IMG/VR virus record: IMGVR_UViG_3300028559_000206
Location: 1 to 22,422 of that record
Origin: a virus
Reading direction: 5' to 3' (one strand)
Length of the DNA: 22,422 nucleotides
Below are positions 665-16,273 of this stretch, piece after piece. A model generated the notes under the pieces. It had not been told where the DNA came from. It worked only from the letters and a program-made list of their open reading frames with translations, and made no database searches. The position numbers and the translations under genes were made by a program. Every line of letters begins with the position of its first letter. Position 1 is the stretch's first letter.

Positions 665-1270
665 TTATAAAGCATTAGAATACCTAAAAAATAATTGAGT
701 ATTTGCTGGTTTTAGCTTGTTAAATAAACAATCCAAAATTGCTGGTTGTTGAGATGTTAAAGTAAAGGGAAATGTTAAAGGAAAGCCATTTGGTTGTATA
801 GAGCTTGGCAATGTAATAACAATTGTAAATGGTGCCGAAGCTTGACTAATCAACAAAAAAGGCAAAGTTAATGGAAATGTTGAGGTTGAAACTCCATTAG
901 AAACTTGTATGTTGTAGCCAAGAATTTCGGCAATTTTTTTAAATTGGCTTTCAGTTGTAGCATTGATGCCAGAGAGTTTTAGCAAAACATTTAACCTTCT
1001 TTGTTCAATTGTCGAAGCTACTGGAATGCAAGAATCAGGAATACCAACAAATCCTTCCCACTCTTGAATTAATGTTGTTGTTTTTTGCGGATTATACTCA
1101 TTAGAAACTTCATTTATTTTATTTCTAAAATTTAACCATTCACTAGCCAAGCCTATTAATATTCTTCTTAATGTTGAATCCTCTGTATTTTTAGCTTCGT
1201 GCAGTCTATCGTCTCTTAAATGTTGCAATAAAATATCTGCTTGTTGTGTTTGGCTTCTTTCTTTTAACAT
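665..1270 (-). CDS. Mu gp48-like baseplate protein (DUF2313/YmfQ family)
   Basis: This 201-residue protein looks like the small tail protein that follows the gp47 (J) protein in Mu-like phages and helps join baseplate to tail fibres. Visible family traits are the N-terminal helix 'ADILLQHLRDDRLHEAKNTE', the segment 'LIQEWEGFVGIPDSCIPVAS' in which an E-x-x-x-G-I-P-D element is typical of this family, and 'RRLNVLLKLSG', followed by a beta-rich C-terminus. It overlaps the gp47 gene by one base (position 1270), which implies translational coupling. The fibre gene starts 17 bases beyond its stop. Synteny with gp46 and gp47 supports the call; the C-terminal half (residues 120-201) has diverged and is rich in 'FPLTLPF'-like repeats. 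Confidence 0.8.
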   Translation of the reverse strand: MLKERSQTQQADILLQHLRDDRLHEAKNTEDSTLRRILIGLASEWLNFRNKINEVSNEYNPQKTTTLIQEWEGFVGIPDSCIPVASTIEQRRLNVLLKLSGINATTESQFKKIAEILGYNIQVSNGVSTSTFPLTLPFLLISQASAPFTIVITLPSSIQPNGFPLTFPFTLTSQQPAILDCLFNKLKPANTQLFFRYSNAL

Positions 1271-2613
1271 TATGGATAAGTTATAGTTCCTAAAATTGCT
1301 AATTGTGAATCGCTAATTACTGTTGTGCTAGATGGTGCCGATAATGTAAAAATTGGCGAGTTGCCATCTTCATCAATAACACCATAAATTAAAGCATTGA
1401 TTTCATTTAATGTAATATCACCACCAACATTGATTGCAGGGCTTTTAAAATAATCGGTAAGAGTTGTTGTAATAGCAGTTTTCATTGCTACAGTGTTTGG
1501 GCTTAATGTTGCAAATGTTATTGCAATTGGCACGGCAGTTGGTGAAGATACTATAACATAATTATCGGGTGTATTTGCAGGTTTAATTCCGTTATCAACA
1601 TCAATGATTGCATTTTTAACAGCATTTACTTGCGAACTGGTGGGGATTATGTTTGCATCATTATCACGAGTAAAGTAAATGGTCACATAACCCGCAGATG
1701 GTGTTGCGGTTTGAATCCAAACCCTAGTAATACCAGCAATTTTTTCTTTAATAAAAACTGGTAATCCTGAAGCTGTAAATGGAGCGGTAAAGTTCGCACA
1801 TCTTTGATTTAAGCGACTTCTTAATTCGTCGTCAGTTTCAGCATCTAAACCAAGTGTCAAGCCATCATAACTTAAATAGCAATTATCATTGACATCAACT
1901 ATTGGACTTATTAAAGTTAATTGAGAACCGCCAGCAGAATTGCCATTTACACCATAATTAACAGCTTTTATTGCAACAAATGCAGAAGTAAAACTAGCAG
2001 TTATTGTGCCAGTGGCAGGGCTTACAGGTGTTCCGCTTATTGTGTAGGTAAATTGAGTGTTTGAAATAACATTAATTGTTGCCGTAATATTGTATTCGGT
2101 TTGAGAAGCTCCAGCGATGGCAACGGATACTCCTGTTGCTAAATTATGATTAGCGGTGGTTGTTGCCGTTGCAGTGCTTCCACTTCTAGTCAATGTTGTT
2201 ATGCCTATTGTTTGAGCCGATATTGTTGCACTGGCTTGGGTTTCATATTGTGTGCCATCAGCTTTTTGAATTGTGGTTGTATTAGGAATTGTTGTTGAAG
2301 CAGTGCCTGTAAAAACAGCATAACCTTCGGCTTTCACTGGATCTTTTCTAGTAATGCCAAACCAAGAAGCCCATAATTCTAAATACTCATCGGTTGCAGT
2401 TTGTGGAAATAGTTGTTTTAAAACTTCTTTGATATTATCGTTATTCTCATCAAAACCAGCCGACATTGATGTAACTGTTGCCATAGCAAGAGAATTTCTA
2501 ATATTAGGGTCTATTTGCTTTGATGTATCGAGCTGTCCTGCATTTACGGCAAGAATAAAGGCATTCGCAAGTCTTTCTTGAATTTGTGATATTGTTGAGA
2601 ACTCAATTGCCAT
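1270..2613 (-). CDS. Mu gp47 / P2 J-like baseplate protein
   Basis: This 447-residue protein is a baseplate wedge component of contractile tails. The N-terminus ('IQERLANAFILAVNAGQLDT', then 'YLELWASWFGITRKDPVKAE') and the middle segment 'DAETDDELRSRLNQR' match the baseplate J family. The C-terminal part with 'ITRVWIQTATPSAGYVTIYF' and 'NVGGDITLNEINALIYGVID' is also typical. Residues about 138-207 form a beta-rich insert ('TTTANHNLATGVSVAIAGAS', then 'ISNTQFTYTISGTPVSPATG') between the two halves of the normal beta domain; this resembles inserts in the tail terminator at 10103-11170. The gene abuts the gp46-like gene by stop/start adjacency and overlaps the gp48-like gene by one base, so the three are probably co-translated. 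Confidence 0.9.
   Translation of the reverse strand: MAIEFSTISQIQERLANAFILAVNAGQLDTSKQIDPNIRNSLAMATVTSMSAGFDENNDNIKEVLKQLFPQTATDEYLELWASWFGITRKDPVKAEGYAVFTGTASTTIPNTTTIQKADGTQYETQASATISAQTIGITTLTRSGSTATATTTANHNLATGVSVAIAGASQTEYNITATINVISNTQFTYTISGTPVSPATGTITASFTSAFVAIKAVNYGVNGNSAGGSQLTLISPIVDVNDNCYLSYDGLTLGLDAETDDELRSRLNQRCANFTAPFTASGLPVFIKEKIAGITRVWIQTATPSAGYVTIYFTRDNDANIIPTSSQVNAVKNAIIDVDNGIKPANTPDNYVIVSSPTAVPIAITFATLSPNTVAMKTAITTTLTDYFKSPAINVGGDITLNEINALIYGVIDEDGNSPIFTLSAPSSTTVISDSQLAILGTITYP
1993..2202 (-). other. Inserted beta-rich domain within gp47-like protein
   Basis: Residues about 138-207 of the gp47-like protein carry the pattern T-x-T-x-T-x-x-H-x-L-x-T-G, then V-x-I-x-G-A, then Y-N-x-T, then F-T-Y-T-I-S-G-T-P and S-P-A-T-G. 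In ordinary gp47 proteins the strands 'TQYETQASATISA' and 'FVAIKAVNYGVNGNSAGGSQ' follow one another, so this looks like a clean domain insertion. A similar domain is present in the tail terminator gene. Boundaries are approximate. Confidence 0.6.
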
Positions 2614-3045
2614 TTATAAATTTAAAAAAAGATTATAATATTTACTGTTGACTTGTAATTTATTTATTAACTCTATTTCAACATTAACCTTTGTATCTTG
2701 TTTAGTAGCTTTAACATTTATTTTACTAACTATACCATCGTCAATCATCCATTTTAGACCATCCTTTATTGATGTTTCAATCATTGTTAGATTAGATTGA
2801 GTTTGTTTGGCTTGTGTTGTATATAACCACAACAAAGAACCTATTTCATAGCCAGCAACACGATTAAAAGCATTTGTAAAGTGTCCTCGCCTTAATGTTG
2901 GCTCGCTTACTTTATTGCTTCTTTTTTCGCAAAAAACTGACATATAAAGGGCAGTGTCTAGACTATCGGTTTTAGCAATATCGCCATTCTCAATATCTAG
3001 ATCCCAATAACCTTTTTTGTGTGTGAGTTTAAAATCTATTGCCAT
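2614..3045 (-). CDS. Mu gp46-like baseplate protein
   Basis: This 143-residue protein resembles phage protein GP46 of Mu-like phages, a baseplate subunit analogous to P2 W and T4 gp25. The N-terminal 'GYWDLDIENGDIAKTDSLDT' (W-D-L then G-D-I), the segment 'PTLRRGHFTNAFNRVAGYEI' (R-G-H/W-x-x-D/N), and 'GSLLWLYTTQAKQT' are family hallmarks. The C-terminal 'KWMIDDGIVSKINVKATKQD' followed by beta strands is also characteristic. It stops immediately before the gp47-like start. Upstream, where the gp45-like spike would normally be co-directional, the spike gene lies on the opposite strand, leaving a 64-base A+T-rich gap (3046-3109). A perfect TATAAT on the minus strand (3066-3071) lies in that gap, but no convincing -35 was found. 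Confidence 0.88.
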   Translation of the reverse strand: MAIDFKLTHKKGYWDLDIENGDIAKTDSLDTALYMSVFCEKRSNKVSEPTLRRGHFTNAFNRVAGYEIGSLLWLYTTQAKQTQSNLTMIETSIKDGLKWMIDDGIVSKINVKATKQDTKVNVEIELINKLQVNSKYYNLFLNL

Positions 3046-3098
3046 TTTATTTTAAATAAATTAGAATTATAAGATAAAATATTTTGTTAAAAAAGCAC

Positions 3099-3113
3099 TA
3101 GAAAAAACTATGA
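3099..3113 (+). promoter_or_regulatory. Start-site box TAGAAAAAACTATGA before the spike gene
   Basis: This 15-base string contains the ATG of the spike gene (3110). The identical 15 bases occur at 15963-15977 and 18839-18853, and a shorter form at 10082-10093. No Shine-Dalgarno sequence precedes the ATG, so the A-run may serve initiation through ribosomal protein S1, or the string may have another role. The sequence identity is seen; the function is inferred. Confidence 0.45.
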
Positions 3114-3589
3114 TTATAAAAGGTTATATTACAAAAACCGATGGCACTTATGCAACGGTTGTTTCAATGTATAATGAAGTCTATGACGATGTATTATTAC
3201 TTTATCCTTACGGCTCACAATCAAAAGTTAAGCCCACAGATACAACACTTATTTTATTGTTTGGTTGCAATGGTAGCAAAACAAATTTATTTGGCATACC
3301 TTACGAAGTAAATACACAATCAATTCTTGAAGATGGCGATAGCGAATTAAAAAACAGAGTTTCTAAAAATGGTTTTAAAGCAGGCAGTAGCAAAAATACT
3401 GTTGTAGGAGATACTGACTGCGACAAATCTTTCAATGCCTTATCTTATAAAGTAAATAATATTAAAGTTGTCGGTAGTCAACAAGCAACAATTAACAATC
3501 CTACTGGCGGAACGATAATAGATGCAGAATCAAGAGTTGCGATTTCAAGTATAATTACAGCTTTAAAAAATCACGGATTAATTGCTTAA
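3110..3589 (+). CDS. Mu gp45-like baseplate spike protein, inverted relative to its operon
   Basis: This 159-residue plus-strand gene sits exactly between gp44-like and gp46-like genes, the normal place of gp45 (baseplate spike/assembly protein V) in Mu-like phages. The segment 'YDDVLLLYPYGSQSKVKPTD' followed by 'LILLFGCNGSKTNLFGIPYE' matches the gp45 pattern: a D-D-V near Q/Y-P-Y-G, then a V/L-x-L-F-G-G-N-R-S-like element. The C-terminus 'NPTGGTIIDAESRVAISSII' then 'ALKNHGLIA' is a closing motif seen in several phage tail proteins. Mu gp45 is about 197 residues, so this is somewhat short. The odd point is orientation: all other tail genes are on the minus strand. Its stop overlaps the gp44-like stop tail-to-tail by four bases. 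It begins in the box TAGAAAAAACTATGA. A possible TAAAAT -10 (3075-3080) lies upstream but no good -35 was seen. Confidence 0.75.
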   Translation: MIIKGYITKTDGTYATVVSMYNEVYDDVLLLYPYGSQSKVKPTDTTLILLFGCNGSKTNLFGIPYEVNTQSILEDGDSELKNRVSKNGFKAGSSKNTVVGDTDCDKSFNALSYKVNNIKVVGSQQATINNPTGGTIIDAESRVAISSIITALKNHGLIA

Positions 3590-4686
3590 TAAATAATTAA
3601 ATCATCGGCAAAACTGTTCCCTAAATTGTTTATTTTGCCTACACTAAAAGAACCTTGCTCTACAATATCAAGATTAGTAAATGAACCTTGTAAGCTTTGA
3701 TGAAATGTAACACCTTGAATCAAAAAAGTTCCCTGCACCTCCATATCATAATCAATTATATCAACAAGAGTATTGGGTTGCCATAATGTATTATTACTAG
3801 AATAATAACCAAGTGTCGTGCAAGTATATCTTGAACCCTTTGCCTTTCTAACTTGTATATTCCACTCGGCCAGAGCCTTTAATGATTTGCTTTCGCTTGC
3901 AGTATCCATTGTCAATATCTTTCTTCTAGTTGATCTAATTTGTGGATCAACAGCCCTCCCTTTTTGTGAAATACCTGTTTTAGTATGAGTTTTATTATTG
4001 CCTTGTGAATATACTTCAACAACATTAAATCTATCTATTGTTGATAATTTTAACCTTGATGTTAAAATGTTTGTGTTTGCGGTGTAATTATTAATTAACA
4101 TATTTTTAACAACCTCATCATCCTCGCGAATAATATTTAAATTGCCGTTTTTATCCATTTTTAACAATACTTGTAATTTTTTAGCATACTGGTCTAAAAA
4201 ATTAAAAATAGACTGGTTTAGCTCCGTCTTTATCGTTTCTTTTGCTTCTAAATTTAATATGCCAACTTTATTAATAACCTTTATTGAAAACCCATTATCT
4301 TTTAAAACAAGATTAACAAGACTTTCAAAATTTCTTTGATTGTAAGATTTTTGAATAATATCTGAGTCAATAATATCTCCCCCAATATCCCGCCCTGATG
4401 CCGTTTTAGATTTTGAACTTGGCGAAGCTTCTTTCTCTATTTCTTCAATAAAGCCAGTTATTATTAATATATTATCGATAAAAACTCTTGCTTTTTGCCC
4501 CATAAAAACTTTTGCTTTTTGCCCCTCTTTAATGTCATTGATAAGTTTACTAGATTTATTTTCTTCAACAGTGGTTGTAAATGAAAAAAAAGAGGAGAAA
4601 TTTTCCATTGCTGAATTAACGGCAATATCTGTAAAACCCTCATATCTAATACCATCAACTTCAAGATAAATATTATTGTTAAACAT
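3586..4686 (-). CDS. Mu gp44-like baseplate hub protein
   Basis: This 366-residue protein matches the Mu gp44 / phage tail protein D family, the trimeric baseplate hub analogous to T4 gp27. Family signs are the N-terminal 'YLEVDGIRYEGFTDIAVNSA', the hub element 'IDNILIITGFIEEIEKEASP' followed by 'GRDIGGDIIDSD' (normally G-R-D/S-x-x-x-D-L-V-D-C/S), and the C-terminal 'LWQPNTLVDIIDYDMEVQGT' then 'FLIQGVTFHQS'. An 8-residue tandem duplication, G-Q-K-A-K-V-F-M then G-Q-K-A-R-V-F-I, lies at about residues 55-70. The start overlaps the end of the gp43-like gene by eight bases. The stop overlaps tail-to-tail with the inverted spike gene, which would normally be its direct partner. Confidence 0.85.
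   Translation of the reverse strand: MFNNNIYLEVDGIRYEGFTDIAVNSAMENFSSFFSFTTTVEENKSSKLINDIKEGQKAKVFMGQKARVFIDNILIITGFIEEIEKEASPSSKSKTASGRDIGGDIIDSDIIQKSYNQRNFESLVNLVLKDNGFSIKVINKVGILNLEAKETIKTELNQSIFNFLDQYAKKLQVLLKMDKNGNLNIIREDDEVVKNMLINNYTANTNILTSRLKLSTIDRFNVVEVYSQGNNKTHTKTGISQKGRAVDPQIRSTRRKILTMDTASESKSLKALAEWNIQVRKAKGSRYTCTTLGYYSSNNTLWQPNTLVDIIDYDMEVQGTFLIQGVTFHQSLQGSFTNLDIVEQGSFSVGKINNLGNSFADDLIIY
4481..4528 (-). repeat. 24-base tandem duplication inside the gp44-like gene
   Basis: The plus-strand string AAAACTCTTGCTTTTTGCCC (4481-4500) recurs as AAAACTTTTGCTTTTTGCCC (4505-4524), a period of 24 bases with one mismatch in the 20 compared. In frame it duplicates eight residues (G-Q-K-A-K/R-V-F-M/I). 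The frame is kept, so the protein remains open. Confidence 0.85.
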
Positions 4687-5872
4687 TTGTTAAAATTTTT
4701 ATATTGCCTTGAATTTGCGAAGTATCGCCAAAATTGTTTAATAATCTTATTGTTTCTTTTAATTCTAGGGAGCCATATAATTTAAAAATAAGTGTATTTA
4801 AGCTAATTGGGTTAATAATATTATAACTAGCAACATTTGGCAAGCTAATTGCTAATTGAGAAAATATATTGGTAGCCTCAATTTTCATTTGCAACAATGT
4901 ATCTCGCAAAGTTTTATCAATAGTATTTGGTAATTGATTAAATCCATTTTCTAAATCAGCAATAACTTGGTTTAATTCTTGTAAATTATTGTATTCTATG
5001 TTAACCGAGGCATCGTAGGCAGTGGCAAGCACAGCAACATTGACAAAATTATTTAATTGATCTTGATTTGTTTTAATGTCTTTTTGAATTTGTGAATTAC
5101 CCACAATGATTTGATCGCTTTCATTAAAGCCGAATAGTTTTTTAGTTGTATTGAATAAATCTTTTGAGTTTTTAAAAGCAACTCCTAGATTGTCAAAAGA
5201 AGTTCGTAAGTTTGAGGCTAGTATTGATGGAGATTGCACTAATTTATTTGCACTATTGACAATTTGGTTTAATGAAGTTGTTAAATCGGCGAAACTATCG
5301 CCAGCACCTTGAATTTGTTTGGCAATATTATTTATTTTGTTCGCAGTTTTTTTTAATGTTTTAACTCCTGAATCAAATTTTGCCTTGGCATTTTTTACCG
5401 ACTTCCAGCCATCATCAAAAGCTTTTTCATTTTTGCCAAGAATGTCTGATTTTAATTGTGCTAAAAAACCTTTGGTAGAAGTTATTTTAGTTGGCAAAAT
5501 ATTTTGAGAAGCTACTTCAAAATTGATTGTGAATTTAGTTATGCCTAGCTCCTTGATACTCTCGGCGAATGTATAGCCAACAACTACAACTTCTAAATCG
5601 CCAAAAGAAGGGTGAACTAATGTTCCAACTCCTGCTTGATCTAAGGCTTGAATTAAACCGTCTCTTTCACTATAACTTACATTGTCATCGGTGAAAACAT
5701 TTAATATAAATTTCTTTTCTAATCCGCCTAGATCCTCAACATATCTTTCTGTTTTGTTAGGGTATTCGTGAGTTTGTGTTTTTCTACCACCAGTCCCACT
5801 TGATTCTTGGTAGAAGAAAAAAGCATCTCGAAACTGACCGTCTGGCAATCTTGATGTGTTAAATATTGTCAT
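4679..5872 (-). CDS. Mu gp43-like tail/DNA circularisation protein
   Basis: This 397-residue protein fits the DNA circularisation N-terminal family (Mu gp43/N), a tail protein located between the tape measure and the hub. The N-terminal domain (residues 1-130) shows 'SRLPDGQFRDAFFFYQESSG', 'GGRKTQTHEYPNKTERYVED' and 'DDNVSYSERDGLIQALDQAG' then 'GTLVHPSFGDLEVVVVGYTF'; the R-x-H-E-Y-P and L-x-H-P-x-x-G elements are diagnostic. The rest (residues 140-397) is mostly helical, with runs of K, N and D that look like coiled coil. The name reflects an old proposal; the function in virions is probably structural. It begins one base beyond the tape measure stop and overlaps the gp44-like start. Confidence 0.87.
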   Translation of the reverse strand: MTIFNTSRLPDGQFRDAFFFYQESSGTGGRKTQTHEYPNKTERYVEDLGGLEKKFILNVFTDDNVSYSERDGLIQALDQAGVGTLVHPSFGDLEVVVVGYTFAESIKELGITKFTINFEVASQNILPTKITSTKGFLAQLKSDILGKNEKAFDDGWKSVKNAKAKFDSGVKTLKKTANKINNIAKQIQGAGDSFADLTTSLNQIVNSANKLVQSPSILASNLRTSFDNLGVAFKNSKDLFNTTKKLFGFNESDQIIVGNSQIQKDIKTNQDQLNNFVNVAVLATAYDASVNIEYNNLQELNQVIADLENGFNQLPNTIDKTLRDTLLQMKIEATNIFSQLAISLPNVASYNIINPISLNTLIFKLYGSLELKETIRLLNNFGDTSQIQGNIKILTNV

Positions 5873-15905: not shown

Positions 15906-15933
15906 TTGACTAACAAATTATAGTATTTAAGAT
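15906..15933 (+). promoter_or_regulatory. Candidate promoter for the inverted 99-residue gene
   Basis: TTGACT (15906-15911) is followed after 16 bases by TAAGAT (15928-15933), 40 bases before the ATG of the plus-strand gene. The -10 overlaps a 13-bp inverted repeat, which would make the promoter repressible. The -10 is only four of six to consensus. Confidence 0.4.
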
Positions 15934-15958
15934 AATTTATTATTATAAATTATCTTAA
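15927..15958. promoter_or_regulatory. 13-bp perfect inverted repeat, possible operator
   Basis: TTAAGATAATTTA and TAAATTATCTTAA are exact reverse complements separated by TTATTA. The repeat lies between the divergent starts of the protease (minus) and the 99-residue gene (plus), covering the candidate -10 of the latter. It has no flanking T tract that would suggest a terminator. Autoregulation by the 99-residue protein is a possibility, not shown. Confidence 0.6.
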
Positions 15959-15962
15959 TCAA

Positions 15963-15977
15963 TAGAAAAAACTATGA
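15963..15977 (+). promoter_or_regulatory. Start-site box TAGAAAAAACTATGA before the 99-residue gene
   Basis: This copy is identical over 15 bases to the box at the spike start (3099-3113) and at 18839-18853. It contains the ATG at 15974. No Shine-Dalgarno site is present. Confidence 0.45.
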
Positions 15978-16273
15978 ATAACACAAAAGAAATTAACTTA
16001 AATATTAAATTTAACCGATCTTATATTTTTTTTAAATGGATTTTGCAAAAATATAAAACACAACTGCCTTACAATGGCGAGATTAAACAATTCGCAATAA
16101 CAAATAATTATTGCCCTAAAATCTGCGACCAGTGGAGAAATTATGGAGTTGGTTATAGAGTTTGGAATTTATTACACAAAGATCTAATAATTAGTTTTTT
16201 GATAGGTAAAATAGATAATCTAGATTTATATGAGCTAGAAAGGGAGTTTTTAGAATTAAAGCAAGAAAAATAA
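15974..16273 (+). CDS. Unknown 99-residue protein, possible HTH DNA-binding protein, inverted in operon
   Basis: This plus-strand gene is embedded between the head morphogenesis and protease genes, which both run on the minus strand. The middle region 'IKQFAITNNYCPKICDQWRN' followed by 'YGVGYRVWNLLHKDLI' recalls a Cro/Cox-like helix-turn-helix (F-A-x-x-x-x-V/C-x-P-x-x-x-x-Q-W-x-x-x-G), and the protein is small and rather basic at the N-terminus, ending in an acidic helix 'LDLYELEREFLELKQEK'. I did not recognise a specific family. Its stop is one base from the stop of the head morphogenesis gene, so it fills the gap precisely. It has its own candidate promoter overlapped by a perfect inverted repeat, and the box TAGAAAAAACTATGA at its start. 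Confidence 0.65.
   Translation: MNNTKEINLNIKFNRSYIFFKWILQKYKTQLPYNGEIKQFAITNNYCPKICDQWRNYGVGYRVWNLLHKDLIISFLIGKIDNLDLYELEREFLELKQEK

Follow-up and report, generated by a model that had tools for sequence, protein, structure and literature searches.

The virus record IMGVR_UViG_3300028559_000206 (22.4 kb, positions 1 to 22,422, G+C 31%; the whole of this stretch is hereafter called the window) carries a Mu-type tail module in which a single gene, that of the baseplate spike, is turned round. Synteny and gene trees indicate that the spike gene was inverted once, in place, in the ancestor of a large lineage of uncultured phages, and has been kept reversed since. We consider it probable that three elements hold jointly at this locus, namely a divergent gp45-type spike, a single fixed inversion, and a promoter dedicated to the spike. 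The relevant features of the window are the following.

665–1270, minus strand: gp48 baseplate wedge gene (PF10076, 5.5e-21)
1270–2613, minus strand: gp47 baseplate wedge gene, J-like (PF04865, 1.4e-39)
2614–3045, minus strand: gp46 baseplate wedge gene (PF07409, 8e-15; phrog_180)
3046–3109, unstranded: divergent gap of 64 bp between the start codons of spike and gp46 (57–80 bp in most relatives)
3110–3589, plus strand: gp45-type baseplate spike gene (159 aa, ATG start, open frame), reversed relative to the operon
3586–3589, unstranded: four-base overlap of the spike and gp44 ends, the place of 0.3–5.4 kb of cargo in relatives
3586–4686, minus strand: gp44 baseplate hub gene (PF21683; phrog_177, 2.5e-55)
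4679–5872, minus strand: gp43 gene, tube initiator or DNA-circularisation protein (PF07157, 2.9e-20; phrog_184)

The spike gene thus stands head-to-head with gp46 and tail-to-tail with gp44 inside a leftward gp43–gp48 baseplate operon. The terminase, portal, capsid, sheath, tube, tape-measure and baseplate genes of the window all lie on the minus strand, the head genes being named by inspection and from matches among relatives. A first-pass annotation had read this as the Mu order from gp43 to gp48 with the spike alone on the opposite strand, which the profile matches of the flanking genes bear out. The tail-to-tail overlap of four bases that it described is likewise present, formed by the spike stop TAA (3587–3589) and the gp44 stop, read as TTA on the plus strand (3586–3588). 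The spike ORF is under purifying selection, with dN/dS of 0.08–0.17 and most changes at codon position 3 in a codon comparison with 10 relatives. No Rfam match was found within the window. Dozens of metagenome assemblies, independent of one another, show the reversed arrangement again, as do contigs of Rickettsiales genomes, and it is therefore neither an assembly error nor due to chance. Its carriers are Mu-tailed myophages, at least partly associated with Rickettsiales. The closest genome relative of the window phage lies in a Rickettsiales assembly (G011), which holds, besides the reversed-spike prophage, another prophage of the Mu type whose gp45 is co-directional (L133, contig C222).

The reversed gene encodes a membrane-piercing spike of the gp45 type that has diverged and carries an altered tip, an identification that is based on relatives, profile comparison and a medium-confidence structural model, and not on a Pfam match of the window protein itself. 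An alignment of the reversed family with nine canonical gp45 sequences by hhalign gave a probability of 95.9 and an E-value of 5.3e-9 over residues 1–104. The profile of the N-terminal part of Mu gp45 (PF06890) scored above its curated cut-off in one relative (G007/L076) and fell short of it in another ten contigs or genomes. An AlphaFold2 model built from 23 diverse sequences reached a mean pLDDT of 75 (an earlier model from a narrow alignment, with a pLDDT of 37, was unusable), and the best PDB matches of this model in Foldseek were the R2-pyocin spike (4s37), P2 gpV (3qr8) and the Mu baseplate spike chain 9ki1_V, with a probability of 1.00 and E-values of about 1e-4 at modest TM-scores of 0.34–0.47. 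The first-pass assignment to a gp45-like spike is supported by these three lines of evidence. An OB-fold N-terminus is followed by a C-terminal tip like those of tail needles and head fibres, which in the clade of the window weakly matches the corresponding profiles. Since this tip is different and the iron-binding HxH apex is absent, by inspection, from the window spike, we call the product a divergent gp45 homologue and not a standard gp45. What places it with the gp45/gpV-type spikes are its gp45-related N-terminal OB domain and its position between the gp44 hub and gp46 wedge genes.

Related phages were sampled through viral-contig searches queried with spike, gp44, gp46 and gp47, and through genome searches; annotated phages were added for the canonical set. 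The gp44, gp46 and gp47 queries were not conditioned on spike orientation. When strands were compared across the gp44–gp46 run, as the first-pass annotation had suggested, all 45 distinct spikes of the lineage ran against gp44 and/or gp46, even at about 33% identity and below, and all canonical gp45 genes (16/16) were co-directional. In a gp47 tree of 61 rows, 44 of them reversed, the reversed state falls on one side of a single branch (SH-aLRT 99), so that one change suffices; among the co-directional rows L102/L172 come closest, followed by L133, with some long branches and the exact outgroup placement unsure. In the spike tree the reversed spikes fall with co-directional L102, L172 and L133, apart from other gp45 sequences (100/98), and stay together among themselves (92/91). 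This tree broadly agrees with the gp47 tree, and inversion in place is therefore favoured over import.

A second gene of the window is reversed in a similar fashion.

15974–16273, plus strand: small reversed gene (putative, 99 aa), between the genes for head protease and minor head protein

Its layout, head-to-head on one side and tail-to-tail on the other as for the spike, is kept in L135 and in every one of the 14 viral contigs recovered; the homologue in L180 agrees on the protease side, and its other flank gave no match to the minor head protein. The motif TAAGATAAWWTATT occurs at 3070–3083 and 15928–15957, that is in the two divergent gaps, and the window has no further copy. As a shared operator it was rejected as too weak, with 3 matches against 0.56 expected and as many in 2 of 100 shuffles.

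Two candidate elements of transcription initiation are apparent in the gap between spike and gp46.

3039–3067, plus strand: sigma70-type promoter candidate towards the spike, TTGCCA-17-TAGAAT, its -35 overlapping the gp46 start codon
3066–3071, minus strand: -10-like hexamer TATAAT (pseudo-symmetric TAGAATTATA) overlapping the plus-strand -10; weak, in AT-rich DNA

In the clade of the window the candidate facing the spike stands 40–42 nt before the spike ATG (52 in L029) and scores z 2.8–5.7 against dinucleotide shuffles; relatives show TATAAT, TATACT or TATTAT as the -10 element, with a spacer of 16 or 17. The TTGCCA element is partly forced by the Met-Ala codons of gp46, and DNA of such high A+T content has many -10-like hexamers. 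The promoter logic does not appear to be uniform across the lineage, since in the branch L129/L132/L157–L170 the clearer candidate faces gp46, at its best as TTGACA-16-TATTAT, and the match in the spike direction is weak in intermediate branches. The hexamer at 3066–3071 may possibly make the gap a bidirectional promoter: overlapping -10 hexamers on opposite strands occur in many close relatives, with predicted starts 15 or 18 bp apart, where chance matches are likely, and are absent from several others (L004, L012, L062, L076). A consensus scan of positions 2600–4800 found no terminator-like sites, against 0.9 expected by chance. A promoter candidate facing the spike, together with convergent genes that no terminator appears to part, would fit separate control of the spike and convergent transcription.

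We propose that the layout represents a noncontiguous operon, a late operon of genes pointing one way that is interrupted by a single structural gene on the opposite strand. Judging by sequence conservation in the clade of the window, rightward transcription of the spike probably begins at a sigma70-type promoter of its own, situated in the 64-bp gap. As no terminator was found between the convergent genes, the spike and hub transcripts would be expected to run into each other and to be mutually antisense. The Mu spike is a trimer (PMC11915804); given that a Mu virion needs only three spike subunits, low and separately set expression of the spike would presumably suffice. We infer such effects of the reversal on expression, collision and dosage, and separate control of the spike may be adaptive or merely tolerated.

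A reading that is quite possible, if short of likely, holds that the reversal is a frozen accident, in which a neutral inversion brought or found a promoter and was kept because re-inversion is rare, with no regulatory meaning. It overlaps with the noncontiguous operon proposed above, since the anatomy is the same and only the function is denied. The single change without reversion on the tree agrees with it, as does the variation of promoter strength and direction between branches; the constancy of the gap in most relatives, the near-consensus spike promoter at a fixed distance across the clade of the window, and the second gene with the same layout (15974–16273) speak against it, though all of these are compatible with neutrality. 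At the other extreme, and in our view unlikely, the flipped spike would be a stoichiometry device, in which polymerase picks either the spike or the wedge genes at a shared, mutually exclusive divergent promoter and antisense transcription from the late operon holds the spike down. If so, the centre of the baseplate would be made on a separate schedule from its rim, and the flipped gene at 15974–16273 would mark another such boundary, in the head module.

The junction of spike and gp44 is a site of cargo-gene insertion in these phages, several relatives having 0.3–5.4 kb between the two genes. In the branch of the window and several others the cargo ORFs lie on the spike strand (32, against 1 shadow ORF). 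A general rule that cargo is always on the spike strand had to be rejected, as it is on the gp44 strand in L171 and L178; there, the segments L171:2747–3799 and L178:2854–3906 encode a 350-aa protein resembling a DNA sliding clamp, by inspection only. Overlapping convergent 3' ends would plausibly offer a low-cost point of insertion. One cassette, with genes for a DUF3440 PAPS-reductase-like protein, a ParB-like protein and an SNF2 helicase, recurs next to gp44 and/or the spike.

L021:7509–11453, in a relative: DUF3440 cassette, also found in L027, L028, L011, L017, L040 and L065–L068

This cassette sometimes includes an ectoine-synthase-like cupin (PF06339, 8.7e-44), and PADLOC returned partial component matches only for it. 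In L064 (10093–12575) and L088 (93–5717), a second sheath gene, 36–38% identical to that of the window, and other tail genes lie at or near the junction; the two segments come from the same sample, are on opposite strands and 93% identical over 1.7 kb, and represent either a nested element or an assembly chimera.

Such traffic at the junction lends some colour to the idea that a foreign spike, inserted in reverse and equipped with its own promoter as a moron is, took the place of a lost ancestral gp45, as does the likeness of the tip to tail needles and head fibres in the clade of the window. We regard this replacement as improbable: the spike and gp47 trees give the same co-directional relatives (L102, L172, L133), several reversed spikes of the branch L129–L170 keep canonical HTHSGV tips (L132, L157 and L170), and a tip can change without replacement of the whole gene.

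That the ORF at 3110–3589 is not the spike, and that a true co-directional spike lies elsewhere in the phage, appears very improbable and is largely refuted. The window protein does lack a Pfam match by itself, PF06890 having missed this copy, and when queried directly against Pfam, PHROGs, PDB sequences and phage records it gave either no match or a match of the C-terminal tip only. This reading is nevertheless contradicted by what the profiles, the family and the fold show. When 13 whole records were searched with PF06890 and the family alignment, in virus contigs of up to 51 kb that may be incomplete, no second gp45-like gene was detected apart from the co-directional gp45 of the separate prophage in the Rickettsiales assembly G011; each virus contig has one, always the reversed one, with the exception of G010, which stops short of the spike and gave no match. 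The first-pass annotation had pointed to such a spike elsewhere as counter-evidence, and within these virus contigs none came to light. A phase-variable invertible segment like the G segment of Mu, caught in one state, would account for a gene opposite to the Mu order and is scarcely credible, contradicted as it is by the same orientation in 45/45 spikes, near-identical phages from many samples included; it is effectively excluded because no inverted repeats flanking the spike gene were found, so that of the fixed inversion and the invertible segment that the first-pass annotation had left side by side, only the fixed inversion stands, with its single change on the tree.

No report of an inverted gp45 was found in the literature searched, which took in a minority of the subscription journals. 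The type of organisation is already known, and what is new is that it has become fixed, across a lineage, on a core gene of the virion. Baseplate gene order of the Mu type is conserved in 16/16 canonical loci examined, and here a single core structural gene was apparently turned once and has stayed turned while the phages diverged deeply (to about 50% identity in gp47). In this lineage one may ask, as in a natural experiment, whether it makes a difference that assembly genes are transcribed in the same direction, and what a noncontiguous layout does for a part of the virion of which only three copies are required.

The window spike has the OB-fold N-terminus in common with the spikes of Mu (gp45), P2 (gpV) and R2-pyocin, which are also its best fold matches, and occupies the same slot as Mu gp45 between the hub gp44 and the wedge gp46. 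It differs from Mu gp45 in its opposite orientation, and aligns from about residue 21–23 of that protein. The HxH apex of canonical spikes is missing in the clade of the window, where a tail-needle-like tip is found, whereas HTHSGV persists in other reversed branches. Sigma70 promoters that fire in both directions from symmetric -10 elements have been described (PMC12825309); there the -10 hexamers of both strands overlap. The overlapping -10-like hexamers of the window and many close relatives would resemble these, as a putative case read from sequence that is weak in AT-rich DNA. The closest parallel in organisation is the noncontiguous operon menE-menC-MW1733-ytkD-MW1731 of Staphylococcus aureus, reviewed in PMC7154746, where a noncontiguous arrangement in S. 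aureus phages is also reported. Both that operon and the phage locus have a gene on the opposite strand within a co-directional series, no terminator found between the convergent genes, and overlapping sense and antisense transcripts to be expected. For the phage, it is putative that the flanking genes share a transcript and that the overlapping transcripts regulate each other. Unlike in S. aureus, the flipped gene here encodes a structural component of the virion, and one ancestral event appears to have become fixed across a phage lineage.
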